Source: Gonatopus flavifemur (Eukaryota > Arthropoda > Insecta > Hymenoptera > Dryinidae). Taken from it: a stretch of DNA of 64,000 nt. The DNA is taken from contig JAFFJZ010000004.1 of NCBI GenBank assembly GCA_018340375.1, positions 44,742,001 to 44,806,000 of the forward strand. Reading direction: 5' to 3'. Positions within the stretch are counted from its first letter, which is position 1. The number at the start of each line of letters is the position of its first letter. A program made the position numbers and the translations under genes. Below the pieces are notes generated by a model. It had not been told where the DNA came from. It was given only the letters and a program-made list of their open reading frames with translations, and ran no database searches. Shown here in pieces: positions 1,729 to 49,828 of the stretch.

Positions 1729-2299
1729 CACAGTGGGGCCAAATGCCAAAAAGCTGGCCAAAACCCCAAAAATGAAGTTTGTAGTTGGGGATATTTGACC
1801 CTTGGGATAAGTAAGGTGATGTCCCAAGTATTGGAATTCTGATATAAGAAGATCTGATCCCCTCCCCCTGCCCTTATGTACCAGTTGCAAAATACCCTCC
1901 TTGAAGTATAATCCGCGTGATTGAAAGACAGTAAAATAACGAGCATGTTCAAAAAGACGCTGTGTCTCGAAAAATGAACCGATTTAACTTTTTCAAATTG
2001 GAGTCTATTACTGAAACTATGTAGAATACACTAAAAATTAAGAGAATATCAATTTGATGAGTGGAAAATACTGACAGAGCAATGATTGGATGTAATTTCT
2101 ATATCTATAAATGAGAAAATGTGTTTGGTTTTTGAAGGAATAGTAGAGAATTACGCAAAATTACGTCGTTTAACTTATTGGAGGTGGTAGATGGGACTCT
2201 TACCTAAACATCAGAAAAAAAAACGGCTGCCCATGTCTGCCCCTAAGCAATTCCGCCATGTTTTTGTGCAGGAAATCACAAAAAATTAGACGGAGTGAT

Positions 2300-2775
2300 G
2301 AGGAGTCCTTAGATCCGTCTGAAACTTGATATGCAGAAGTTTGTGGGGTCGCTGATTATGAATCCGTTGTCTTCATTTCGGAATTCAAAATGGCGGATCC
2401 AATATGGTGGACGAAAATTGAAAGAAATCATCGGATTTTCTTCAAATTCGTGACCCAGGGGTTTCTGAGGTCGCTGATTACGAATCCGTTGTTTGAATTT
2501 CAAAATTCAGAATGGCGGATCCAATATGGTGGATGGAAATTGAAAAAATCATCGGATTGCCTTCAAACTCGGCACCCTGAGGTTTTTAAGGTCGCTGATT
2601 CCGAATCCGGTGTCTGAATTCCGGAATTCAGAATGGCGGATCCAGTTTGGCAGAAAAAAATTGAAAAAATCATCAGATTTCCTTCAAACTCGGTATCCAG
2701 GGTTTTGTGGGGTCATTGATTACGAATCAGTTGGCAAATTCCAAGAATCAAAGATAGCGTATCTAATATGGTGGA
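2300..2775 (+). repeat. Left subterminal array, four 121-bp units
   Basis: The phrase GCTGATTACGAATCCGTT recurs with small changes at about 2351, 2473, 2593 and 2715, each followed by GGCGGATCCAATATGG-like sequence. Period is about 121 bp. The array runs opposite to the right-hand array at 6405-7320. It is not coding. Subterminal repeats can act as transposase binding sites; that role here is inference. Confidence 0.85.
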
Positions 2776-3655
2776 CACAAAACTCACAATTCAGTAGATT
2801 CGCTTTGAATTTTATCTCAACGTTAGTATGTGTTTTATTTCCAGTGTATATTTGCTGCACGAGGAAAACTGTATGAGATTGATTACCATTCGTTTTTCTT
2901 CTCATCGCGGGCTTGGGGTACACAAAAGCCAGAAATCATTGATATTTAGGAAGATGATGGACCATTGAGAGAAAAACAGTGTTGCTGGAGAATATTCGTA
3001 GTGAATTTACTATGAGTTGATGAATTCACTATGGGAAATGACAATAAAACTACCAACATTTAGTATTATTACTACGAATTTTTGGTAACTTCACTGCTAA
3101 CATTCTTCAGCGATGCTCTTTTTCCCTAAAGTAACCGTCATTTTCCTAAATGTTTATGAATGTTATTCAAGTATTGATATCTCTTTTCTTTTCGTGAACT
3201 GAATCATGACTCGCGATTTGGTGATCGTTCTTATGTTAACCTATCGTTTCCATAGCAACGTAAATAGTTGGTTGTAATCGGTCTGATTTCAAATGGTGCT
3301 CATCACAATTGTGCAATAGCTGTCACCGAATTCTTACTCTTGCTAGTAATCGTTACCGTAAACTTTTTTCCGCGTGCAAGTCTGGAGCTTGGTGAATATT
3401 TTTCGTTTTTTAAAATCATTCAATGTTAACATACAATTCCAAATGAGATGGATTCCGCTGCCATAGGTGGGTGTTTCAACAACCTATATTTTCTTAGTAG
3501 TTTAATTTGAACAGTTGACTGCGAAAAAAATTAGCTTAAGAGGGTTGAATCCAACCCAAGAAAATCAGGAAAATTTTTAGAAACATATAGGGTTTCTGTA
3601 GCGAATTTTATCGAATTCTACAACGTTTGTAGATTTCAAAGATGATTCAATATCT

Positions 3656-6156
3656 ATGACTCGGAGAGAGATGTACAATATTTCAAGGAGCAGTCCTCTA
3701 CCTACGTTGGATGAAAAGTTCACTTTCCTTCAAGGAAAAATCATCGAGATAACGTGTTGTCGGGATAACAAAACTACAGAGATCTCTAACCTTTTATCTA
3801 CTTTTAAATGTGTATTCAAGAAGAGATGGGAATCTTCTCAAAGGACCGAAGAACGATTTCTTGAAAATAATGAAGAATGGTTAAAACAAGAGGTAGTGTT
3901 TTGTACTTTCAGGAATCCCCATTCTGTAACTGTTCACACGCAAGTGGGAAGACCTCTTGTTGAATTCAACGAATGTTCAGAAAGAACGAAACGTAGGAAA
4001 ACGGAGAATATCAGAGTAAATACTCCTATCTCAGAGCTGTCTTACACCACACAAATGTGTTTGAGAGCGTCTGGACAGAACGAAGCCGCAAAAATTGTAA
4101 AGGATGTTACATCTTCTGATCCTGAGCTTGTCAAAATGTATATGAAAGGTTATCAAACTTTCAAGCGAAATGCGCCAAAGATGTTGAATGATGAAGATGC
4201 TCTAGCTCTCCTAGTAGATGCCGAGCTCTCAAAACATCAGTACTGCTTATTGCGTGGAGCTGATCCGCAGAAATTTCCACCTTATAAAAAAATTCAACTG
4301 ACCAAACGCATGTGTTTCCCTGACAAGGAATTTATTCAAATAACAGAAACCTGCGCTGTTGTGCAACTACAAGCACTTCTTGATCACACAGCTACACGTA
4401 TTTTAAAGCTACAGAATTCGGTTTTGTCAACTTTATCTGATGAAGAGTTACAAAACCTGGTACTTATTTCCAAATGGGGGTTTGATGGGAGCTCTGGCCA
4501 CTCCTCATACAAACAAGCATATCAAAGTTCGGAAGCTAGTGATTCCGCTGTGTTCATTACTTCACTTGTGCCTCTCCGCCTACACTGCAATTCAAAAATA
4601 ATTTGGCAGAATCCAAGGCCATCATCAACCAAATTTTGTAGGCCAATCAAAATAGAGTTTGTGAAAGAATCAACTGAAGTTTCGGTTGCAGAGAAGCTAC
4701 GGGTTGATAATGAAATAGAAAATCTGAGGGCTACTTCTTTCAGAACTGATGAAAAACATGTTTCAGTGAAACATGAGATGATTTTTTCTATGGTGGACGG
4801 GAAGGTATGCAATGCCATAACTGAGACAACCTATACCCAGAAGTGCTATATATGTGGTGCCACATCTAAGGAATTCAACAAAATTGATGATATAGTATCC
4901 AGGCCGGTCAAAACCGAAAACCTCCTGTTTGGTTTGTCTTGTCTACACGGCTGGATACGATTTTTTGAGGGCCTCCTGCATTCGTCTTATAAGCTACCTA
5001 TTCAGAAGTGGCAAGCACGAAAACAAGATAAAGCTTTGGTGGAAGAACGAAAAAAGGTTGTACAGAAAAGTTTTGAAGAAAAATGTGGCCTCATTGTCGA
5101 TGTTCCTAAGCCAGGGTTTGGGAACTCAAATGATGGGAATACCGCTAGGCGATTTTTCGCACAACCCGAAGTTTCTGCCGAAATCACAGGGGTGGATGTC
5201 AACCTAATACAACGACTTCATGTAGTATTAGCTACCGTTTCAAGTGGCCATGAAATAGACGTTGAAAAGTTTCGGAGTTACGCTTTAGACACGGCACGCT
5301 ACTACGCGACAAAATATCCGTGGTACCCAATGTCACCTACGATGCACAAGTTTTTGATCCACGGACCTGAAATCATTGCATCCGCTCTTCTACCTATAGG
5401 CCAATTGACTGAGGAAGCACAAGAGGCTCGTAACAAAGATTTTAAAAGGTGAAAATGATGTATATCACTTAATAATAGTCTATATTTGTCACAGTGGACT
5501 CGACACTTTGAAGGGAAAAATTTGACTTCTCAAGTACTGCAATCAGTTTGATACATTGCACAATACGTTTTTGACTACTAGGCAAACTATATATTTATGG
5601 TAACCACGAGAATATATGTTCGCGAAGATTGTTTTGTTCTGGTAAGGAATTCGGGGAATTATGAATATTCATATACTTTTTTTTATTAATAAGCCACATT
5701 GTTCATCCTCTGGAAACATAAATTCATAGACTAGAAAACAATTTTGAGAATCAAGTAAACTTATGAATTAGAGGATTTATTCAAAACTCTATACTGATGA
5801 CCCCAAAGTGCAGCTGCTTTTTGTTTTTCCTTGATTTTGCTTGTCATGTTGAGATCAAAAGCTTTAACGGTGTCGATGAATACATAATTATATTCAAATA
5901 TCTTAACAACATTCATTTCCAAAGGTACCGAGAGCATCACTCCAGGAAATGCAGTAGAGGAAAAACGAATGAAGACATTTTTAAATGGTTCCTTTTGAGT
6001 TCTGATCCAATGTTATCGAGTAAAAGACAGTTGCCCAAGAAAAAACTAAAGTTTCTCCCTAGAGACGTGTTAAGCCTGATCAAAACTCCGGATATACTTG
6101 ATAAAGACAACGTAACTTTCCCATTATCTTCCTCTGAGAGTGAAGAAGAAGACTGA
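3656..6156 (+). CDS. Transib (RAG1-core-like) transposase, two exons
   Basis: Exon 1 is 3656-5448 and exon 2 is 5925-6156. The intron (5449-5924) has GT..AG borders, and splicing joins AG to G as an Arg codon inside the conserved C-terminal block. The predicted protein is about 674 aa, a normal Transib length. By eye against RAG1: D277 in FDGSSGHS matches the first catalytic Asp (D600), CYIC at 397-400 matches the CxxC zinc site, NTARRFF and HKFLIHG (H564, H569) match the zinc-binding C-terminal region, and E590 in TEEAQEARNK matches E962. I could not place the second catalytic Asp by eye; the block around LSCLHGWIRFFE is where it should lie. A Ser/Glu-rich acidic tail ends the protein. Unspliced, the frame ends at 5452, four bases past the exon, which would remove the last 76 residues. 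No internal stop is seen in either exon. It should bind the CACAGTG ends and cut and paste the element. Confidence 0.82.
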
Positions 6157-6404
6157 TTTGAGTAAAAAAAGTGTGGCAAAAGTAAAAACCATTACGATTT
6201 CAGTTTTTTATATTATTGTATATATTGTGAATGTATATATCTTTAGATTTAACACATTTGGTGTGGTAATATCATTCGATAATTATATTAATAATGATTC
6301 AATGTTGGAAATAATAATAATAATAATGATCATAATAAGAACAACAAAATGGGCCGTTTAGTTCTTGTTTAATATTAAGTTATGAATGAGAATTTGATTT
6401 CCGG

Positions 6405-7320
6405 CATCCGCCATCCTGAATTTCGGAATTCTGACAACGGATTCGTGATAAGCGATCCCGAAAACCCCTGGGTACCGAGTTTGAAGGGAATCCGATGATT
6501 TTTACAATTTTCGTCCGCTATATTGGGTCCGTTATTTTGAATTTTGAATTTCAGACCGTGGATTCGTAATCAGCGACCACAGAAACCCCTGAGTACCGAG
6601 TTTGAAGAAAATGCGATGATTTTCTTAATTTTTGTGCACCATATTGGATCCGCCATTCTGAATTTCAAAATTTTGACAACGGATTCGTAATTGGTGACCC
6701 CTAAAACTCCTGGATGCCGAGTTTGAAGAAAATCCGATGATCTTCTCGATTTTATTCCACCATATTGGATCCGCCATTTTGAATTTCGAAATGCAGACAA
6801 CGGATTTGTAATCAGCGACCCCAGAAATCCCTGGGTACCCAATTTGAAAAGAATCCGATAATTTTTTCAATTTTCGTCCGGCATATTGGATTTGACATTC
6901 TGAATTTGTGAACTCAGACAGCGGATTCGTAATCAGCGACCCCGAAAACCCCTGATCACCAAATTTGAAGAAAATCCGATGATCTTCTCGATTTTATTCC
7001 ACCATATTGGATCCGCCATTTTGAATTTCGAAATGAGAACAACGGATCCGTAATCAGCGACCCCAAAAACCGTTGGGTACCCAATTTGAGGAGAATCCGA
7101 TGGTTTTTCAAATTTTCGTCCGCCATATTGGATTCGCCATTTCGAATTTTGGAACTCAAACAGCAGATTCGTAATCAGCGACCCCAAAAACCCCTGATCA
7201 TCAAGTTTGAAGAAAATCCGATGGTTTCTTTCAATTCTCGTCCGCCATATTGGATCCGCCATTTTGAATTTTGAAATTCTGACAACGGATTCATAATCAG
7301 TGACCCCATAAACTTCCCGA
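6405..7320 (-). repeat. Right subterminal array, eight 121-bp units
   Basis: Eight copies of the left-array unit in inverted orientation, marked by ATTCGTAATCAGCGACCCC-like words near 6440, 6562, 6682, 6803, 6923, 7045, 7167 and 7287. Copy number differs from the left side (eight against four), as expected for unequal exchange in tandem arrays. Minus-strand open frames of up to 168 codons here arise from the repetition and are not genes. Confidence 0.88.
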
Positions 7321-7392
7321 GTACGAAGTCGCAAGCGAATTTGAGAGCCCCTTATAATTTTGTCCAGCTTTTTGGCATTTGGCCCCACTGTG

Positions 7393-7397
7393 CAACG
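7393..7397. repeat. Transib target-site duplication, right copy (CAACG)
   Basis: Perfect copy of 1724-1728, directly after the right terminus. Confidence 0.85.
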
Positions 7398-8090
7398 CAA
7401 AACAAACGATAAGTGATAGGCTTCCAGCTTACTGTTCATCTTTTGTTACACGTTAATTAAAGAGAGGAATAAAATGTCTAAATTCGGCTCATCTAAAGCG
7501 ACTAGAGCTTATATATAGATGTTGCTTGTTCTCAAATAACTGTTCCCAATCCCTCTCATCTTTCTCCAGGAAGGAAACCATAAAGAGATGTCTGGTGAGG
7601 AAAGGTACGTTCAATATAATTTCATTGTCTCCGTAGTTCAGATGAAGAGTATGATCTAATGGAAAAGTCCATTGAATCTAACCAAATCTCATCGGGAATC
7701 AGACATCAACTACATTGACTACAACAACAATAACATGAACTACATCCCACTGCATTGACTTCAGCTAGAACATTGTACAATATTCAGTAAGATTCTTTGA
7801 CAAAGGCTGTTATCAGATTCCCGAATGTAAAAAAAAATCGATAGTATTGGTAGCTAACATACAGATCTATGGTATGTTCGCTTCATTTTGTTGAATCCTC
7901 ATCCACCCGTACTGCTATTCAAATAATCTAATGTTAGTGTCGGATAGATCTGTGATATATTCACTACACTTTTGCCTTTGCTTCACACGACCATGAGGCC
8001 AGCGAATGGGATTGATAGTGACAGCTATCGTCTAGCTGAATAGCTAAGGTACAGATTTTTTATTCGTCTGTTTCATTTCTGCTCCCCCAA
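7398..8090. other. Intergenic, possible promoter and tiny first exon
   Basis: No clear gene. A TTATATATAG box at 7509-7518 is followed about 80 bp on by an ATG (7588) and the codons MSGEE, ending at a good splice donor AAAG|GTACGT (7604/7605). This could be a promoter with a short first exon, but I found no second exon, so it stays a guess. Confidence 0.2.
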
Positions 8091-12913: not shown

Positions 12914-12957
12914 CACAGGTCAACCTTTGATCTACGCTGGAGCACCAGGACGGAGGT

Positions 12958-13745
12958 GAGTACCTATAAGTTTTGGAGGTCACAGATCACGACTCCTGGA
13001 TCCATATGACCCTATCATGTCAGGATCATGGTCAAATCAAGGTCAAAGATCTCAAATCGAAAGATATAATTTTTTTGACTTCGGATTCCGAACCAGCGGG
13101 AAATTTTACATTCAGATACATTTTTACCTTCGAATGAAAGTGATATCTGCAGGTCATATTGAGGTTATATGTAGGTGAAATCCTGTTTTCGAATATTTTT
13201 TTTATACTAGGCTGAGCAGGCTCTTGGATCAGTTGACTCCTACGTTTTGAGGGTCGCAGATCACGATTCTGGGGTCTATATGACCCCATCACTTCAGAAT
13301 CAAGGTCAAATCAAGGTCGAACATCTCAAATCAGAAGATATCATTCTTCTTCACCCCGGATCCGGAATCTGCGGAGAATTTTACATCCAAATACACTTTT
13401 ACGTTGAAATTAAAGTGATATCTGCAGGTCATATAAAGGTCATATGTAGGTGGAATCCTTTTTTTAAATGTCTCTTCTGATATTGGCCAGGCAGGGTCTT
13501 GGATTAGTTGACTTCTATGTTTTTGCGGTCGCAGATCACGATTTCGGGGACTATATGCCCCCATCACGTCAGAATCAATGTCAAATCAAGGACAAACATC
13601 TTCACATCAGGGGATATCATTCCTTTTAATCCCAGATTCCGACCCAGCGTGGAATTTTACATCCAAATACACTTTTACATTCAGATTGAAGTCATATCTG
13701 CAGTTCATATGGAGGGTAATATGCGGGTAAAATCCTTTTTTCGAA
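12958..13745 (+). repeat. Left array, three 275-bp units
   Basis: GCAGATCACGA-like words fall at 12982, 13257 and 13532, exactly 275 bp apart, each followed by CATATGACC and TCAAATCAAGGTC. Inverted counterpart at 16700-17440. Confidence 0.85.
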
Positions 13746-13870
13746 ACTTTCGGGCGATTTCAGTGGTTATTACGTGTGATTGGACCCAGGGCACCTCCAC
13801 GTGGTGACGGCGGGTGACGAAGTTGTCCCGCGTTCCGGCTGAGTCCCTGGGTTACGGCTTCCATGCTGTT

Positions 13871-15724
13871 ATGGCAACCACACGGGATAATGTTACGAGA
13901 CAGGGTTTCGGAAACCTAGAACCGGCGGCTGGTCAGGGTGGGGAAGCGGGTCCGCAGGCGTCGTCATCATGCGACTGCAGCTCTACATTGGTGGGAAACT
14001 TGGCCTTTGTAGAGTCGAATGCGACAAGTCAATCCTCGTCTTGCATGAACGGGGTGAACAATTCCTGTGTCGTGTGTGGGGAGTATATTCCCCAATCGAA
14101 AGAATTTATGTTTCCGGATCTAATGAAGAAAGAATATAACGAGTGCTCCGATATCGATAGCTACACATTCGACAAGATTTGGACGCCTCAATCTATATGT
14201 TCTAGATGTCGCAGTGCCCTTAATGAATCTGATAAACGAATATTTTCGAGGCTAATGATATGGAGAAAACCAACAGATCGTACTTCTGATTGTTACTTCT
14301 GTTTGACCAACGTAAAAGGCTTCAATTTTGTCAATAGACGCGCGATTTCCTATGCGTGCGTGACATCTGTCATTCCCCCCGTGTATATCAGCGCCAGAAT
14401 CGATGGGAACGACAGTAGAGATGTAGATGATGAAGCCAACATTGATGAAATTCCCGCAGATAATATCACTATCGATGCAGAGACGCCAGATCAACGTTCG
14501 AATACTCCAGAAAATGAAGGGAGTGATAGTTTTAGTGAAAAAGAATCAGAAATTGAGGACAATGAATTGAATTGAGAAAAGATGAACCAAGATGAACTTA
14601 GTGACTTGTGCCGAGACTTGGGACTCTCAAAAGATGAATCTGAACTATTAGCATCCAGACTAAAAGAGGAACAATTTTTGACTCCAGGAACGCGTGTAAC
14701 ACACTGTCATTCAATCGAAGGTTTGGTCAAAGAATACAGCATAAAGTATACAGCTAGGGATTGGCATCTGTTCATCGATTCTTCAGAAAGAAGCTTAAAA
14801 GCTATCTTGCTCCACAACGGAAATGCTTCACCAGTTGCTTATTCTGTCATACTAGATGAAAAGTACCATAACTTGGAATTATTATTGCAAAAACTGAAGT
14901 ATGAGATTCATAACTGGCAAGTTTGTGGAGACTTGAAGACGTTCACAATTTTGCTTGGGCAACAATCAGGATTCACATCATATCCATGCTTCATCTGTGA
15001 ATGGAATAGTCGGGCTAGAGATGAACATTATGTTCGAAAAAATTGGCCGTTAAGAGAAGAATTAATTCCTGGTGGAAAAATATCAAAAGTCTGAGTCTGA
15101 TATCAGGAGAGCAATTTCTCTTACCACCGTTAAATATTAAATTAGGGCTGGCGAAGCAATTTGTCGAAGTAATGAGAAAAAATGAAAGTGCTGCTTTTAT
15201 GTACATTTTCCGAGTATTACCCCATCTTTCTGAAGCGAAAATGAAAGAGGGCGTATTTACAGGACCCGGAATAAGGACACTCTTGAGGTATGAGGAATTC
15301 GAGAAGCGAATGGATGATAAAGAAAAAGCAGCATGTTGCAGCTTTAGGGAGGTTATAGAAAAATTTTTAGGGAACAATAAAGACCCCGAGTATAAGAATA
15401 TTGTGGCGAAAATGGTAAATGATTACAAAAAAGTAGGATGTTTGATGGATCTCAAGCTTCACTTTCTTGATTCTCACCTGACTTCTTTCCAGAAAATTTT
15501 GGAGCATCTAGTGAAGAACACGGTGAAACAATGCATCAAGACTTAAGTGAGTTTGAGAAAAGATTTCAAGGTATTTGGGGGAAGAATATGTTGGCAGACT
15601 ATTGCTGGTGTTCAAAAAGAGACACAACCGTATCACATAAAAGGAAAGGTGTTGAGAGATCATTTTTGGAAAGTGAACGTCAGCATTTTGAGCGGTGATA
15701 CCACATTGTACTTTTGAAAAAATT
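13871..15724 (+). pseudogene. Decayed transposase-like gene (repeated arthropod family, superfamily unknown)
   Basis: First in-frame ATG is 13871; the frame open further upstream begins with GTG. The N-terminal part (to 14575) has CxxC pairs (CVVC, CSRC, CYFC) and an acidic Ser/Glu/Asp stretch. A TGA at 14573-14575 interrupts the frame, which then continues in phase through a part with LFIDSS, LLHNGN, WQVCGDLK and CFICEW. An A-run near 15080 shifts the frame into LLPPLNIKLGL and KEGVFTGPGIR. A second shift near 15485 leads to PENFGAS, EEHGE and LADYCW, ending about 15700. These blocks are familiar from many repeated arthropod proteins annotated as uncharacterised. At least one nonsense codon and two frameshifts make it inactive, unless the indels are sequencing errors in homopolymers. 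Confidence 0.7.
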
Positions 15725-16699
15725 GAACAATTTCTTCTTGGCTTGAAACACTCTTTATAGATTTGGAAATGATAGGCCATGATCTGCGAATCGAGATCTG
15801 AAGTGGAAAGACAATTTTTGAAACGTGGAGATAGGGGCGTGCACAAGTGCGTTGACGTTCTAGCATGGTGACTTTCAGGAATCAAATCTCTGGCTCATCA
15901 CCTGCTTATTTTAACCTGTCAGAAGGAAGTGAATATCGATCACATAGATGTAGAAAAGATGCAATATGGGCCCAGTAAAGGAAATTAGAGGTGATTTCCA
16001 TCCAAGTCATCTTGATTCACAACAAATCGTCATGAAAAGTTTAAACGTTCGTCTGAGAACTGTATCTTGAAAATCGGTGGGTGCGTTAGCTCTGTCAACT
16101 TTCAATCAATTGCCCCGGTTTTTTTCAATTGTATTCGTGATATAGTCATCCAATGAAATACATACGAGAGTGACGAAATATTAATATTTACGTTTCTCTT
16201 AAGTCACGAATTTTGGGGTGAAAATCCTACGTTTCTCTTCAAATCGATGCTATTTCGTGGAGAAGCATATTTTTCAAAAGTGATACGTATTTTACTACAT
16301 TTCGGGTGACAAAAACGAATTATTTTTTGTGCATTGTTTTGGTTCAATCTTGGACTGGGTTATTTCTCCCACTGAACGACCATGAATTTCCGCAGCGCAC
16401 CGATCAATCGCCTGTCAGGCCGCCATATTTGCAGCAAAAAATTGATCAAAGATGTTATTCTGAACTTCAATAGTAGCATCACACCTTCCTGCATTTCAAT
16501 TTGAATGGCACCTTTCTAATTATTCACAAACAAAAATCTTGAAAATTGGCGTTTTTGCAGGGATCACTTTAGTCTTGTCCTCCAAAGCTGACTCTTATGA
16601 CGAGCGAGAGTGAATTGTTCATATTGAGGTTGAACAGATTTTGAAAGACAGAGAATTCGAAAGAAAACATTTGACCTGCAGATGACCTCCATATGACCT
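15725..16699. other. 3' flank of the decayed gene, no gene seen
   Basis: Noncoding interior of the 12914-17486 element. No motif recognised. Confidence 0.5.
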
Positions 16700-17440
16700 G
16701 CAGATATCAGCTCGATTGGATTATAAGAATTTATCAAGATTCAGAATTTCCAGGCCGACCAGGATCCGGGATTGAAAGAAATGATATCCTTTGATGTGAA
16801 GATGTTTGTCCTTAATTTGACCTTGATTCTGACGTGATGGGGGAATATAGTCCCCGAAATTGTGATCTGCGACCGCAAAAACATAGAAGTCAACTAATCC
16901 AAGACCCTGCCCAGCCAATATCAGAGGAGACATTCAAAAAAAGGATTTCACCCACATATGACCTGCATATGACCTGCGGATATACTTTTAATTCGAATGT
17001 AAGAATGTATTTGGATGTAACATTCCCCGCTGGTTCGGAATCCGGGGTAAAAAAAATTATATCTTTCGATTTGAGATGTTTGACCTTGATTTGACCTTGA
17101 TCCTGACGTGATGGGGTCATACAGACCTAGGAATCTCATTCTGCGACCCCAAAAACGTTAAAGTCAACTCATCCAACAGCCTGTTTAGCCTAATATCGGA
17201 AAAAAGGTTCAAAAACAGGCTTTTACCCACATATATGACCTGAATATGACCTGCGAATACCAGTTTTATTCGAATGTAAAAGTGTATTTGGATGTAAAAT
17301 TCCCTGCTGGTTCGGAATCCGGGGCCAAAATAATCATATCTTTCGATTTGAGATGTTCGACCTTGATTTGACCTCGATCCTGACGTGATGGGGTCATATG
17401 GACCAAGGAATCGTTATCTCCGACCCCCAAAACTTAGGTA
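16700..17440 (-). repeat. Right array, three 275-bp units, inverted
   Basis: Complements of the left units, marked by GACGTGATGGGG and CTGCGACC words at about 16862, 17137 and 17414 (spacing 275-277 bp). Confidence 0.85.
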
Positions 17441-17819
17441 CCCACCACTGTTTTGGTGTTCCAGCGTAGATCAAATCTCACCTGTGTAATTGGTGGATAC
17501 TGTTATCATTTTGTGGTAGTGGTTTACATTGTGCGGACGACCCTGGAGTTTCAGTTGTCAATATTGCGGAATGGTGGAGTAGTGAATTTTTGGCAATTTT
17601 CCCTGAATTTCGACTTATATAACCAGTTTTTAGTACACCATCTATCAATTGACCAAGTTAAACCATTAGAAATATTGAAGAACTAGCCAACGAAAATGAC
17701 ACAATTAGTTAAAAGTTTCAAAACATCTACACATCTCGTCCAACCGGGGTTTCCAGCGTGGGGTCATAAGTTACCCCATGTGGCCGTTATGTGGCCTAGG
17801 TGAGGTGTAGCCGTTGAGA

Positions 17820-37432: not shown

Positions 37433-40400
37433 ATCATCATCATGAAGTAATCAGTCTTACGACTGGTTTGATGAAACCCTCCACCCCTGTCTATTATCCG
37501 CCAAACGTTTAATTTCTACATATCTACTACATCCCTTGTCTTGTACGATTTGCTTCATATAACTTGCTCTAGGTCTACCTTTACCAGTTTTACCATTCAT
37601 TTTCCCTTCCAATATTGTTTTCAATAAACTCTCATGCCGTAATGTGTGTCCTATAAGATTGCTTCTCCTTTTCACGATGTGTTTCAAAAGATTTCTTTCT
37701 TCATTTATCTGCTCGAGTACTTCTTCATTTTTGACTTTGTCTATTCATTTTATTCTGAGCATCCTCCTATAAGACCACATTTCGAAAGCTTCAAGTCTTC
37801 GTTGATCAGTTTTCCCCATTGTCCAAGTTTCGCAACCATATAATGCTGTGCTCCAAACGTAACTTTTCAAGAATTTCTTCCTTACTTCCAAGCTTATATT
37901 TTTTGAGCATAATAACTGTCTCTTTTGATAAAAAGCCTGTTTCCCTTGTGCTATTCTTGCTCTTATATCTCTTTCGCTTTTGCCGTTCTCTGTAATTATG
38001 CTTCCTAGATATTTGAATTCTTTCACCTGTTCAATTGTCTCGGTATCTATTTTGATTCTCGTTCTTCTAGCTGTTTTCGCTGCTGTACACATCATGAATT
38101 TTGTTTTGTCTTCATTTATATTCATATAATAGTTTTCCAATAATATTGTTCTCATGGTGTTGAGAATGGTTTCTAACTCAGTACTACTCGTGGCCAATAT
38201 AGCTATGTCATCCGCGAATCTCAACATACTTATATTTTCTCCCTGAATCTGTAATTTCGATTGAATTTCCTCCTTCACTTCGTTCATTGCTTCTTCTATA
38301 TATAAATTGAACATCAGTGGCGATAATGAGCATCCTTGTCTCACCCCTCTTCTTATTTGTGCTTCCCCTTCCTGACCCTCTATGTCTATTATTGCACTTT
38401 GATTCTTATATAATTCGTATATTATTCTTCTATCTTTATAATTTATTCCCACCTTCTTCAGGATCGCAAACATCTTCTCCCAGTCCACATTATCGAAAGC
38501 CTTTTGTATATCTACAGAACCTATGTACACAGATTTCTTCAGCGCTATCCTTTTCTCTATTACTGCCCTGAGTGCTAAGATTGCTTCTCGCGTTCCCCTA
38601 TTTTTTCTAAAACCAAACTGATCCTCTGCCAATCTACTCTCTATTTTATTTTCCATCCTCCTGTATATAATTTTGGTCAGTATTTTCGAAGCATGTGAAG
38701 TTAAACTGATCGTTCTGTAGTTCTCGCATTTGTCTGCCCCTTGTTTTTTCGGGATAGCGACAATTTTATTCTTTTGGAAATCTTCCGGTACTTCTCCTTT
38801 TTCGTACATATCTCTAATCAATTCAAACAGTGCGTCGCGAGTTCCTTCACTGGAGGCTTTTATAAGGTCCGCACTTATGCCATCTATGCCTGGCGCTTTA
38901 TTATTTTTCAATTCTTTCAAAGCCTTGTCGAATTCTGATCTCAATATCGAATCTCCCAATTCTTCCTCATCTACATCCTCCTCCTTCTCTAATAGTGCTA
39001 TATCATCGTTTCCTCTATACAAGTCTTCCAAATGATTGATCCACTGTTCTATTTTCTCTTCCGTTTTTATCAATTGTCGTCCTAGAGAGTTTCTAATCTT
39101 ATTGCTTCTAGATTCCATTTGTCCGAAAAATCTTTTAATAATCCTATATGCTTCATCTATTTTTCCTAAATGCAATCTTATTTCTATTTCCTGACATTTC
39201 TCTTCTAACCACTGTTCTTTCGCTTTCCTTGATTCTCTTATTATTTTATTTCTCAATGATTTGTATCGTTGCTGGCCTTCTTGGCTATCATTATTCTTGT
39301 ATTTTCTTCTTTCATTTATCAATTCTAAAATTTCTCCCGTTATCCATGGGTTTTTAGCTTCTACTCCATCATTCTTCGAAATCTTATCCGCACATTCTCT
39401 TATATTCCCCTTCATCTTTGTCCATCTTCTCTCTATTCCCAAGTCTTTCTCTTTTTGATCTCCCAATTTTTCATCCAACATTTTCTCGAATGCCTCATGT
39501 GTTTGTTTTTGCTTGAGGTTCTTCAAATTCCATCTTTTTTGCATTTTCCTTTTCTTCTTCAGAGATTTGAATTTCAGAGAATATTTCATCATCAACATAT
39601 TATGATCACTATCTATATCTGCACCGGGATAAGTTTTACAGTTTTTCACTTGGTTTCTAAATCTTTGTTTCACTAATATGTAATCAATTTGGTATCTTGC
39701 TGTATCTCCTGGCATTTTCCAAGTGTAGATTCTTCTTGGATGATTTTCGAATAAAGTGTTTGTGATAACCATCTTATGATTTTCACAAAATTCGACTAAA
39801 CGTTGTCCTCTATCGTTCCTCCTCCCTAACGCGAAATCTCCTATAATGTTGTCCTCTTTTCCTTGTCCTACTACCGCATTCCAATCCCCCATCACTATCA
39901 AATTCTCTTCTCCCTTCACATATTCTATCACTTCTTCTATTTCTTCGTACGTTTTTTCAATATCTTCCTCCGAATATGCAGATGTGGGCATGTATACTTG
40001 GACTATGACTGTGTCTACCGGTTTTGTTCTAATTCTAACCATCATCACACGTTCATTATGTTGCAAATAATTTTCTATTCTATTTCCTACTCTGTTATGC
40101 ATTACAATTCCTACACCTGCTTGACCGTTCTTTGATCCTGTGTGAATTATTCTATAATCCCCACTCCAGGAATCGCCCTCTTGTGGCCATCTCATTTCGC
40201 TAATCCCCATTACGTCTATATTCAACCAATTCATTTCTAATTTCAAATTTTCTAATTTTCCCGCTTGCCTCAGTGATCTAACATTCCACGCTCCGACTCG
40301 GAGAATGTTGTTTCTTTTCCCTATCCTATTCATAGGTTTTCGTTCCTTGCTGATGAAGCTTCCTCGAGCAGCCTCCACCCGGAGATCCGAACGGGAGACT

Positions 40401-40788
40401 AGTTTACCTCCGGAATATTTTACTCGAGAGAGCGCCATCATGTATTTATTAATTTGTTTGTTTGTTTTTGTTACATAATATTCCAGGTTAGGAAAAAGGT
40501 TTCATTTCCTCGGGAAGTATTGGAACATGTCAAGGAAGGTAGTTTCCCCTTGCTTTCCTTCCGTTTGATTTTGCCGATGTTTCTGGCATTAGGATGATTT
40601 CGTTTCTCTCAGTTTGTATTCTTTCTCTTGAGTAGTTTATTCCACTCAAAAAAAAAGATCCAACTCTGAGATACTTATCCTCCCCACCACGTAAAGGAAG
40701 CAGATACTACCAGGGATGGATAAAAAGGATATCAAGGACAGGTATCATGAATATCCCCCTGGAAGACCCGCAATCATCCACGGGGAGG
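37433..40788 (-). mobile_element. Near-complete RTE-type non-LTR retrotransposon
   Basis: 3356 bp flanked by an 11-bp direct repeat AACATTCATTC (37422-37432 and 40789-40799), a plausible target-primed duplication. A leader of about 350 bp (40788-40442), one long frame encoding endonuclease and reverse transcriptase, and a short 3' end finishing in ATGATGATG-type repeats fit the compact RTE layout. A truncated relative lies at 32889-33685. Confidence 0.88.
37457..40441 (-). pseudogene. RTE polyprotein: APE endonuclease plus reverse transcriptase, one nonsense codon
   Basis: The frame starts at the ATG complementary to 40439-40441 and is open for 898 codons. A TGA at 37745-37747 then sits where the truncated copy has TGG, and the frame continues 95 more codons to 37457. 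Endonuclease (about residues 45-285) shows GAWNVRSL, E in ISEMRWP, GDWNAVVG, QIDYILV and SDHN. Reverse transcriptase (about 500-770) shows NKAPGIDG near 515, NYRTISLT, FGFRKNRGTREAI, SVDIQKAFDNVDW, RRGVRQGCSLSPLMFN and FADD near 740. The C-terminal tail has RRSNLIGHTLRHES and GKGRPR.SYMKQI. All core catalytic motifs are present, so the stop may be a recent lesion or sequencing error; product from the longest frame would lack only the tail. No separate ORF1 is seen, as usual in RTE. Confidence 0.88.
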
Positions 40789-45197: not shown

Positions 45198-47292
45198 AGT
45201 TTCATAGAATCTGGAAGCGTGAGGAATTTTATACTTTCATATTGAGAGTTTGGCACGTATAAATCATACAGTAGATCAGAGAGAATTCATGGAGAACTGA
45301 TTTGAACATTGGAGAATGCGATGTGGATTCTTAATTCTTCTGGACCTTCTGTCGAGTATTGGGAATACATCCATGAAATATCCCCTGAGAAAAAAATGTA
45401 GCCAAGTACATATGAATTTCGATGTACCAAACAGGAGTACGTAATTCAATCAAATAGACAATCGATAGGCTCAACTATATACCATCGTTTCTACTAAATA
45501 TTTAGTTCCCTCAACAACGTACTGTCGAACACCATATCCAATCACATATGTAGCTGGCTCCAGTATACTTCTCCTCAGTGGATGTATCTGGGTATGTGGG
45601 GTACTAAAATTGATATTCCGCAATTACTATTTTACCTGTTGAGTGGAATGTATCTGGACTTTTTTTCACAACGTTCTGCAGAGAGCTCTGAACAAAACAA
45701 TCTCGATTTACAAGGAGAAAATTCCAACTCTTCACATATTTCATTAAGGGGGGAAATACATGTAGAACCAAAAAAATCGAATGTTTTATTTTTTGCTCTC
45801 AAAATAAGTATGAACCCTTAGCTTTGAAATGCGATAAACCGGAATCGAAAAAATCAAATAGAACGAAAGTTATGCTCCATCATAGAAAGGAGCGCGTAGC
45901 GTCAGGGAAAGCGTCGTCTGGCTACCGCAGGTATACGGCGCGCTCAGCATTTCGCAGACTCTCCTAATCCCTTATGGCGTACCTGCATATATATAAATAT
46001 GTATACAATCTTTATTCTGAATAGAGCAGATGTTTGAGCCTCTCTTTCTAACAAAGACATTCATGTAGCGTACTGCCTCACGTAAATGGCTCTTTTGACC
46101 TGCGAGGCTCTATTCTAACTGCCGAGTCAGTTTAGTTCAGCACGTCGTTCGGAACGGTTGAGTTTTTGCTAAAATATTCGGAATGTCGAATTATCCAAAA
46201 GGTAGCCGAGAAAATCCAAAGCAGTATTGTCGCAATCGTAAGAGACATTTCCAAGGAAATCAATTTACCGAAGACAAAAGTGAGAGCGAAGGCGCAAATA
46301 CGAGTACAAGCGCAAGTGCGAGAAAACTTGAAAGTGCTAGTAGTGATGATGTAGTGTCCAATCCATTGCACGGATATCGTATTTTTGAATTTGCCACTGT
46401 TTGTCTCGCTCTCTCGGAATCATTAATCTGCCGTGTGTGTGAACAAGCTGTTACTTTTTGAGAATCTGGACAAAGAGGCCTTGGATTTGAAATTGTAGTA
46501 ATATGTCGATGTGGACACGTGAATATAAACTCGGGGCCTTTTATTCGGGAAGGATTTGGAATAAATAAACGGATTGTGATTGTAATGAGATTGTTGGGTA
46601 TTGGTAGAGCCGGCATAAATTTATTTTGTAGTTTAATGGATATGTGCAGTGGTTTAACGCAAGGTACGTACGATAGTACGATCCAACGCCTTCATGCCAC
46701 TTCTAAATCAATGTTTGAACTCGTTACAAAAAAAGCCGCGGATGAAGAGAAACAGAGAAACTCTGACCTCGAAAGGCCGCTCTTACAATTGAAAGTTTCA
46801 GGTGATGGTACTTGGAAAAAAAGAGGATTCAAATCACGATACGGTGTAACAACGCTCATTGGTCATTACTCTGGTAAAGTGATCGACCTCGTTATTAGAA
46901 GCAGCTATTGTTCCGCCTGCAATTTGTGGAAGAACAAAACTAACAGCCTAGAATATGAAGCTTGGTATGAAAATCATGGAGAGGAATGCACAAAAAATCA
47001 CGGAGGCTCAGCGGGTAGAATGGAAGTAGATGCCATCACAGGAATGTTTTTACGTTCTGGAGAGGAATTTGGTGTCAAGTACGTGAATTATATTGGAGAC
47101 GGCGACTCCAAAACTTATAAAGCTATTTTGAATGTGAATCCATATGGCGAAGAAACACCTGTTGTGGGAAGTGAATGTATTCAGCGCGTCGAGAAAAGAA
47201 TGTGGGGTAGACTGCAGAATGTGGAAGAAAACTCACAAACTCGGTGGTCGAGGTAAATTGACTGACGTTGTCATAAAAAAACTCACGACATA

Positions 47293-48585
47293 CGAGGGTG
47301 GATTGATAAGTTTCCGACCTGACCAAGAAAAACAACGTTCTTAAGAATTTTTTTTTTTTATTTCTCAACATAATCTCCTCCAAGGCTGATACATTTCTCA
47401 TAGCGGTGTTCTAGTCTAGTAATGCCATCTCTATAGACTGATTCGTCAAGCTCCTCAAAATACCCATTTACAGCTTCGATTACTTCTTCATTGTCCGCAA
47501 ATCTCTTACCGCCAAGCCATTTTTTGAGGTTAGGAAACAGATAATAGTCACTCGGGGCTAGGTCTGGAGAGTAGGGAGGGTGCGGCATTAATTCAAACTT
47601 CAGATCGTTGATTTTAGCCATCGCAACGATTGACGTGTGCGCTGGTGCGTTATCGTGATGAAACAAGATCTTTTTCTCCGCCAGATGAGGTCGTTTAATT
47701 TTCACTTCGTGGCTCAAACGTTGCAATAAGTCTGCGTAGTATTGACCAGTGATAGTTTTACCCTTTTCAAGGTAATCAATGTATATAATACCTCTTGCAT
47801 CCCAAAAAACAGTAGCCATAACCTTGTTCGCCGAAAAAATTGTTTTTGCCTTCTTTGGAGTTGGTTCCCCTGGTCCAATCCACTGTTTAGACTGTTCTTT
47901 GGTTTCAGGAGTGTAGTGGTGGACCCAAGTTTCGTCAACGGTTACGAATCGACGCAAAAATTCGCTTGGATTACGCTTATACAACGCCAAATTGGCGGTA
48001 GAAATGTTCTTTCGAATCAATTTTTGGTCGACTGTTAGCAAACGCGGCACCCATCTTGCACAGAGCTTTTCCATATACAAATGTTGGTGCAAAATATTTT
48101 GTACACGTTCATATGACATCTTACAGGTCTCAGCTATCTCACGAACTCTTAATCTGCGATCTTTCAGCACTATTTGATGGATTTTTTCGATCATATCTGG
48201 AGTTGTGACCTCAATGGGGCGTCCTGAGCGAGGCTCATCAGAGGTGCTCACACGACCCTTTTTAAACTCGGAAACCCACTGCTTAACGGTTGAATATGAT
48301 GGGGAGGATGTCCCCAGTGTTGAGTCCATCTCTTCTTTAATTTCCTTCGGCGTTAACCCCTTCAAATAAAAGTATTTGATGACAGCACGATTTTCCAGCT
48401 TTTCCATTTTTACGAAAAACACAGAGGCGTCTTGGTCAGCGTGCTCTCAAAACTAAACTAACATGCCGATCGGACTGAAACTATAGCTACAAGCTATCTA
48501 AGGATGGTACTATAGAACGCCACCTCAAGGTAGGCCTAGTGGCGCCATCTCTTGGTCAGGCCGGAAACTTATCAATTCACCCTCG
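47293..48585 (-). mobile_element. Mariner transposon with intact ends
   Basis: 1293 bp, a standard mariner length. The left end CGAGGGTGGATTGATAAGTTT and the complement of the right end CGAGGGTGAATTGATAAGTTT match, with two mismatches in about 35 bp. TA flanks both ends (47291-47292, 48586-48587). It lies antisense inside the Kolobok-like transposase gene. Confidence 0.93.
47358..48407 (-). CDS. Mariner transposase, intact, D,D34D
   Basis: The ATG is the complement of 48405-48407, giving 349 aa, the usual mariner size; upstream codons in the same frame have no ATG. The N-terminal half has two helix-turn-helix regions (KGLTPKEI..STVKQWV and LRVREIA..SYERVQNIL) with GRP between them, then RWVPRLLT, a variant of the WVPHEL motif. 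The catalytic triad is D158 (TVDETWVHH), D252 (FHHDNAPAH) and D287 (YSPDLAPSDYYLF), with exactly 34 residues between the second and third Asp. No stop or frameshift, so it may be active. It would bind the CGAGGGT ends and insert at TA. Confidence 0.93.
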   Translation of the reverse strand: MEKLENRAVIKYFYLKGLTPKEIKEEMDSTLGTSSPSYSTVKQWVSEFKKGRVSTSDEPRSGRPIEVTTPDMIEKIHQIVLKDRRLRVREIAETCKMSYERVQNILHQHLYMEKLCARWVPRLLTVDQKLIRKNISTANLALYKRNPSEFLRRFVTVDETWVHHYTPETKEQSKQWIGPGEPTPKKAKTIFSANKVMATVFWDARGIIYIDYLEKGKTITGQYYADLLQRLSHEVKIKRPHLAEKKILFHHDNAPAHTSIVAMAKINDLKFELMPHPPYSPDLAPSDYYLFPNLKKWLGGKRFADNEEVIEAVNGYFEELDESVYRDGITRLEHRYEKCISLGGDYVEK

Positions 48586-49828
48586 TATTACGGTTTAGCC
48601 ATTCGCAGGAACATTATTAGCGTTGAGAATGTGAAGAGAGACATAATGGCAACATTTTACATTTCCTCGACCGCAGAAAATCCGAGTCCCGACAGCTGCC
48701 CAAAAGGAGTCGACAGCTGGTGCAAGTGGCAAAAAGCCCTTGCTCAGCAAAAGGATCCAAAGTCTCTCAATTTATCGCCTCTTTTACCTCAACAGTTCAA
48801 GCAATTTTTAGAGCCCATTTATGAAGAACTTTCAAATGATGATTCATTAACGAGATGTCTGGGTGGACACACTCAAAATGCCAACAAAAGTTTCAATTCG
48901 ATGATCTGGCTCATGGCACCTAAACATCTGCATTCAGACCTAAAACTTGTCGAAATAGCGGCTTTTCTTGCTGCTGGAATTTTCCATGAAGGCTATGGGT
49001 CAATAATGCATCCTTCCAACGAATTAGGAATAGTTATTCGGCCTCAATGTAAAATATCTGCCGGGCAGCATGACGAAACGCGCATTGCTCGCCAAAACCG
49101 TCGCAGCTGGCATGAGTCTAAAACAGCTCGGCAAGCTCGTAAACAACCACTGGCCATGGAAAATGAACTATTTGAGGGAGCTGAAGGATTTATATATGGA
49201 CCTGGAATAGCAGATCGATAAGTAAGTCACGATTAATCGTAATTTTCCTTATCCGATTCACTACTTTATTTTCAATCGCGTTTTTCTCGGAACTACATTT
49301 TTGTAATTGGTATACATCATAACTCGAAAACTAACCGTCCGATTGAGTTGGAATTCAGTGTACATATAGTCAATAACATCCTCTTCAATTTGTACCTACA
49401 TGATTACAACATTTACATCAAATAATACAACTTTTTCAAACAAATTGGTTGAAAGAATCACGCAAAAATCGACTTTCTCTTCGAATCAATACCAAATTTT
49501 TAATTTTTGACTTCTTGATGATTTTGGAGGTTTACATTGAAGGAAATATGGTCAATAATTGACATCTTTTCACGTTTCTGTTTCAGATGAATATTCAGAG
49601 AGCTGCGATGTATACCGTTTGTGAAGTCTAGCGTGACCTGACCTCATTTGGATCGCATTACAGCCGCCGTTTTGTTTTCTTTTTCTTTAAAAAAAATTTT
49701 TTTCTGTGCTCGAATGTTTTACTTGTTATGTATGAAAATTATGGAATGATGGGATGTTTGTGGGTGTAATAAAAAAAATCACAAGAAACTCGTTTTTTTC
49801 ATGCGTGTACATGTATTTCCCCCCTGAA

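Follow-up and report, generated by a model that had tools for sequence, protein, structure and literature searches.

The window analysed here is a 64,000-nucleotide stretch of the Gonatopus flavifemur (Hymenoptera; Dryinidae) contig JAFFJZ010000004.1. Between its positions 1729 and 7392 lies a 5,664-bp element that, judged from its sequence and its relatives, is very probably a full-length copy of a Transib, an autonomous DNA transposon whose family has recently multiplied in this genome. Its two 29-bp arms are perfect inverted repeats, each starting CACAGTG, and it is flanked by a perfect 5-bp duplication, CAACG; a preliminary description of the sequence had reported both, and we confirmed them at the positions below. 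The features of the element and of its target are as follows, in window positions.

1687–1728, no strand: left part of the target that the element interrupts, a repeat of roughly 133 bp that is imperfectly palindromic
1724–1728, no strand: left target-site duplication CAACG, single in the uninterrupted relative L085
1729–1757, plus strand: left terminal inverted repeat, 29 bp, starting CACAGTG
2300–2784, minus strand: left subterminal array, about four 121-bp units
3656–5448, plus strand: transposase exon 1, with D277 at 4484–4486, D381 at 4796–4798 and E590 at 5423–5425
3944–4138, plus strand: residues 97–161, a nonamer-binding-domain-like segment with a GRP motif
5449–5924, plus strand: intron of 476 bp, GT...AG, with an in-frame TGA at 5450–5452 if retained
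5925–6156, plus strand: transposase exon 2, C-terminal tail and stop
6406–7313, plus strand: right subterminal array of about 7.5 121-bp units, in the opposite orientation to the left one
7364–7392, minus strand: right terminal inverted repeat, 29 bp
7393–7397, no strand: right target-site duplication CAACG
7393–7488, no strand: right part of the interrupted target repeat

Ends and transposase of the element

Transib transposases are relatives of the enzyme that rearranges antibody genes (RAG), and the terminal inverted repeats of Transibs share the heptamer-like consensus CACWRTG. CACAGTG, found at both ends of the element, fits this consensus, and its first seven bases are those of the consensus recombination-signal heptamer. 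By itself the heptamer is uninformative: the window contains CACAGTG six times on the plus strand and three times on the minus strand, where 3.9 per strand are expected. What takes the ends beyond chance is that the same two ends recur, in 16 of the 21 copies, that of the window among them, that were read at length, and in 7 of another 10. The longest inverted match between the ends is 36 bp at 97%. As for a V(D)J recombination signal, the heptamer is present but the combination of heptamer and nonamer with a 12/23 spacer pair is not: the best nonamer-like matches score 7/9 at spacers of 10, 21 and 22 at the left end, and 7/9 at spacer 10 and 6/9 at spacer 22 at the right end; at neither end do the six best matches include a spacer of 12 or 23. 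The nonamer-like motif ACAAAAACC, allowing up to one mismatch, occurs 10 times in the element versus 3.3 ± 1.8 expected under a first-order Markov model; this excess was not used as a signal because some of the motifs sit in repeat units and are not independent, and the two in the right array face outward. Heptamer-like ends are a general feature of Transibs (PMC4411706, PMC8355894), and both ends with symmetric spacers of 20–22 bp and some with 12/23 asymmetry have been reported for them (PMC8355894).

The transposase gene was also described correctly at first reading. From the ATG at 3656 the spliced product is 674 amino acids long and open across both exons once the 476-bp intron is removed, and this start (MTRRE...) aligns with the starts of several relatives. 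Support for the intron is comparative: all 21 aligned relatives run unbroken over the junction into sequence resembling exon 2, and the GT and AG are kept in 21/21 genomic copies. The best-scoring relative is 57% identical and none exceeds 62% among the best 120 of 628 relatives. Only one other stop-to-stop frame of at least 130 amino acids is found in the element, a 170-amino-acid frame over the right array and end.

The window protein is homologous to known Transib transposases and scores best to HzTransib of Helicoverpa zea (E 6.3e-112, versus 0.055 for RAG1L), so that the Transib identity proposed in the preliminary description holds and no other superfamily takes its place. All seven DDE-triad and zinc-coordinating residues checked are present, and they are conserved in 66 of 66 aligned rows for D277, E590, C397, C400, H564 and H569 and in 64 for D381. 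The fold is RAG1-like, with RAG1 rows 16–19% identical, and residues 97–161 form a GRP-type nonamer-binding-like domain as in Transib subgroup II (PMC9435367). Residues 1–80 gave no Foldseek match at E <= 0.001 and only weak rows in VIA. Subgroup II is also marked by a CTT2 tail and loss of the alpha11–alpha12 region (PMC9435367); at this end of the protein, the C-terminal tails of relatives align with HzTransib to residue 490, and window exon 2, judged by eye, resembles these tails. The tree places the window protein on a lone branch (0.66) next to a clade of 31 relatives, and as far as these searches go the family appears to be new within the Transib superfamily. The RAG1-like fold would also be expected of a RAG-like transposon of the ProtoRAG type that carries a RAG2-like gene in addition, but we consider this exceedingly improbable: HzTransib is far closer than RAG1L by the scores just given, the 170-amino-acid frame is the only second frame of sufficient length (no dedicated RAG2 search was made), and the ends start CACAGTGGGG, unlike the protostome RAGL consensus CACTWMCAAAC (PMC7204232).

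Copies, target sites and age of the family

The genome of the window (636 Mb, 402 contigs) was searched with the protein and with both ends. The 71 best of 2,142 protein candidates cover the exon 1 frame at 96–100% identity, and 52 of the 71 are stop-free. With the left 122 bp as query, the 40 best of 1,000 candidates are all 100% identical, and with the right 103 bp the 40 best of 1,026 are 99–100% identical. Joined by place and strand, the three sets of matches give at least 125 distinct places, a number that may include allelic copies on duplicate contigs where flanks were not compared. On contig C323 (50.3 Mb), all 8 of its copies among the 71 listed lie at 41.5–48.9 Mb, within the last 9 Mb, and many other copies are on contigs under 10 Mb; the copies are possibly enriched in repeat-rich DNA.

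The 21 copies read at length are the window copy and the 20 best protein matches, a sample biased toward good copies; ten more were checked by short end pieces only. Both ends were recovered in the 16 copies mentioned above, 12 of them with an exact duplication, by a search that allowed substitutions only, up to two mismatches to the 29-bp end; the right end of L015, missed in this way, carries one extra base together with a CGTTG that matches. All seven two-ended copies among the further ten have an exact duplication, which brings the total to 19 of 23 two-ended copies, of 31 examined. The other copies that the preliminary description had proposed to look for thus carry the same termini, not different ones. 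Their duplications are 5 bp long and GC-rich, as in the Transib superfamily, with the consensus CGNCG (C 16, G 14, any, C 15, G 17; n = 19). Judged by stop positions, 14 of the 21 copies keep their spliced frame open, and 8 of the 21 combine an open frame with both ends and an exact duplication. The element had at first been regarded as a rare natural template for RAG-like chemistry; this fails because the same genome has at least 125 places and 8/21 copies as complete.

Relatives of the target sites that lack the element were also found. The target repeat of the window copy has 38 listed places besides its own flanks, 37 of which span the junction at 77–82%; of two that were read, L085 has a single CAACG at the site and L086 a diverged one. 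For another copy, L026, 40 listed places match its two flanks, joined around a single CAGCG, at 95–99% over 238–240 of 240 bases, and the two places that were read (L079/L080 being one and L081/L082 the other) are gap-free, with 238 and 232 of 240 bases identical and a single CAGCG. On this evidence the limits of the element and its 5-bp duplication are genuine marks of insertion. They largely refute the view that the locus is a Transib-derived host gene instead of a mobile element. An open frame and conserved splice sites would suit such a gene, but perfect ends with a duplication, uninterrupted target relatives and occurrence at no fewer than 125 places would not, nor would the flanks, which among the 21 copies compared match at E <= 1e-5 only for L017, L026 and L027 with one another (73–81%); we give this view next to no weight. 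At the same threshold, the two flanks of L012 match each other in inverted orientation.

Exon 1 of the 21 copies differs pairwise by 1.26% on average (0.76–2.01%) and from the majority sequence by 0.3–1.1%, the window copy by 0.87%. The family thus looks like a recent expansion, although the sample is biased by the choice of copies. Singleton changes in exon 1 comprise 92 non-synonymous, 63 synonymous and 3 stop changes (expected fractions 0.671, 0.293 and 0.035), a synonymous excess in a sample that, being the 20 best protein matches, is biased for a test of purifying selection. No short derivatives of the kind known as miniature inverted-repeat transposable elements were seen among 30 left-end loci read (of 40 listed), loci that end at 1.6 kb; each of the 30 matches the element for 1.1 kb or more beyond the end, at 92.5–98.5% identity. 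An internal deletion may explain one place that has two ends and is 4.1 kb long.

Condition of the window copy and its surroundings

The preliminary description had called the element apparently intact, which holds only for the frame and the ends. Compared with the majority of the 20 other copies, the window protein differs at 14 of 674 amino acids. In exon 1, 11 window positions depart from a residue common to at least 85% of 65 relatives; eight of these departures are shared with the family majority, and the remaining three, at positions 131, 159 and 326, are among the 14 differences. An open frame therefore does not mean an active protein here, since three of the 14 changes hit near-invariant positions: T131 where 65/65 relatives have A, V159 where 60/65 have A, and K326 where 58/65 have R. 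These differences suggest that the window copy might be dead, with an impaired protein of its own and ends that could be mobilised in trans by the transposase of other copies. Against this, the copy retains its frame, its two ends and each of the seven catalytic and zinc residues that were checked; we consider a dead copy a serious possibility, with somewhat less than an even chance.

Besides these three changes, several results count against a full-length autonomous Transib of a recently multiplied family. The Pfam RAG1 model PF12940 does not match the window protein. No transcript of the family was found among the best 120 of the 628 relatives. Four of the 23 two-ended copies lack an exact duplication, namely L012 and L018 (4/5 bases each), L020 (2) and L028 (1), and only one of the two relatives of the window target that were read, L085, has CAACG in full.

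Just inside both ends lie the 121-bp tandem arrays, which were absent from the preliminary description. The distance between the beginning of the exon 1 frame and the right end ranges from 3,424 to 4,183 bp among the copies, mostly in steps of about 121 bp, with L011 and L012 as exceptions, whereas the left side is steady at 1,858–1,875 bp in copies that have the left end; units of the right array have therefore apparently been lost and gained. The arrays may be binding sites, a spacer or a by-product. A second element of the same layout occupies 12926–17475, with 41-bp ends at 85% and inverted arrays of a 275–277-bp unit at 12970–13742 and 16775–17433; its frames at 13808–15546 have no Pfam match at E <= 0.01. 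The consensus units of its array and of the Transib array share the stretch GCGACCCCAAAAAC.

Elsewhere in the window, a mariner element at 47290–48588 has 39-bp ends (95%) and an open transposase frame of 362 amino acids (PF01359, E 6.7e-26). It adjoins or lies within a Mutator-like transposase gene at 46462–47256 (PF20700, E 4.5e-40), which the frame at 48502–49221, itself without a Pfam match, may continue. A long interspersed nuclear element at 37745–40501 on the minus strand has an open frame of 918 amino acids with endonuclease and reverse transcriptase domains; its best relatives are 55% identical, and the named ones are mainly from psyllids and aphids at 44–49%.

Proposed mechanism and comparison with known systems

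By analogy with HzTransib, the spliced 674-amino-acid transposase would bind both terminal repeats and nick 5' of CAC, the flanking DNA would be closed into hairpins and the element freed with blunt ends, and insertion with a 5-bp stagger at CG-rich sites would leave the CGNCG-like duplication. HzTransib and RAG both nick 5' of CAC and form flank hairpins, blunt element ends and 5-bp staggered insertions (PMC6941560), and we infer the same cutting chemistry for the window family.

It is conceivable in addition that splicing of the last intron governs the output of the element, as in the P element. The intron starts 24 nt past the catalytic glutamate codon. Were it retained, translation would stop immediately, giving a 598-amino-acid protein that keeps the DDE core complete, lacks the C-terminal tail and could plausibly act as a repressor. 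This stop just inside the intron is kept, like the GT and AG, in all 21 copies read. Control of the output by splicing is a long shot; if true, a brake of this kind, with the 121-bp arrays acting as transposase-binding decoys, could explain how an autonomous Transib came to more than 100 copies, against the "one or at most a few" called typical in PMC4411706.

Among known elements, HzTransib shares the DDE core with its zinc residues and the 5-bp duplication. It is smaller, at 3,518 bp and 489 amino acids versus 5,664 bp and 674 amino acids here, and the available portion of PMC1852546 mentions neither an intron nor 121-bp arrays; its solved chain begins near residue 173 of the window protein and is without the nonamer-binding-like domain that the window protein has. 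With Transib subgroup II the element shares that GRP-type domain and symmetric ends, the latter reported for subgroup II but not subgroup I (PMC9435367). The RAG1 core is more distant, at 16–19% identity, and here neither a RAG2 partner nor a 12/23 spacer pair is seen. Transib1 of Drosophila melanogaster shares the recent spread of full-length copies; it is 3,030 bp long and from another host, and subterminal arrays are not mentioned in the available portion of PMC12230796.

According to PMC4411706, of 2015, autonomous Transibs typically occur as a single copy or a few at most, and Helicoverpa armigera has 32 full-length Transib copies in all (PMC7764229). More than 100 places for one Transib family is high, yet recent bursts such as that of Transib1 (PMC12230796) are already known. 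Heptamer-like ends and a nonamer-binding-like domain have likewise been described for Transibs and are not peculiar to the window copy, which, though a good example, is an ordinary one of a known kind; less usual are the inverted 121-bp arrays inside the two ends, the number of copies, and the last intron, which if retained would remove the tail. What the family adds is a Transib that has recently multiplied to many copies, whose ends are well defined and whose targets have relatives without the insertion; this contrasts with the picture in PMC4411706. Its copies are a natural set of sequence variants with which the requirements of RAG-like chemistry can be tested, the nonamer-binding-like domain among them.
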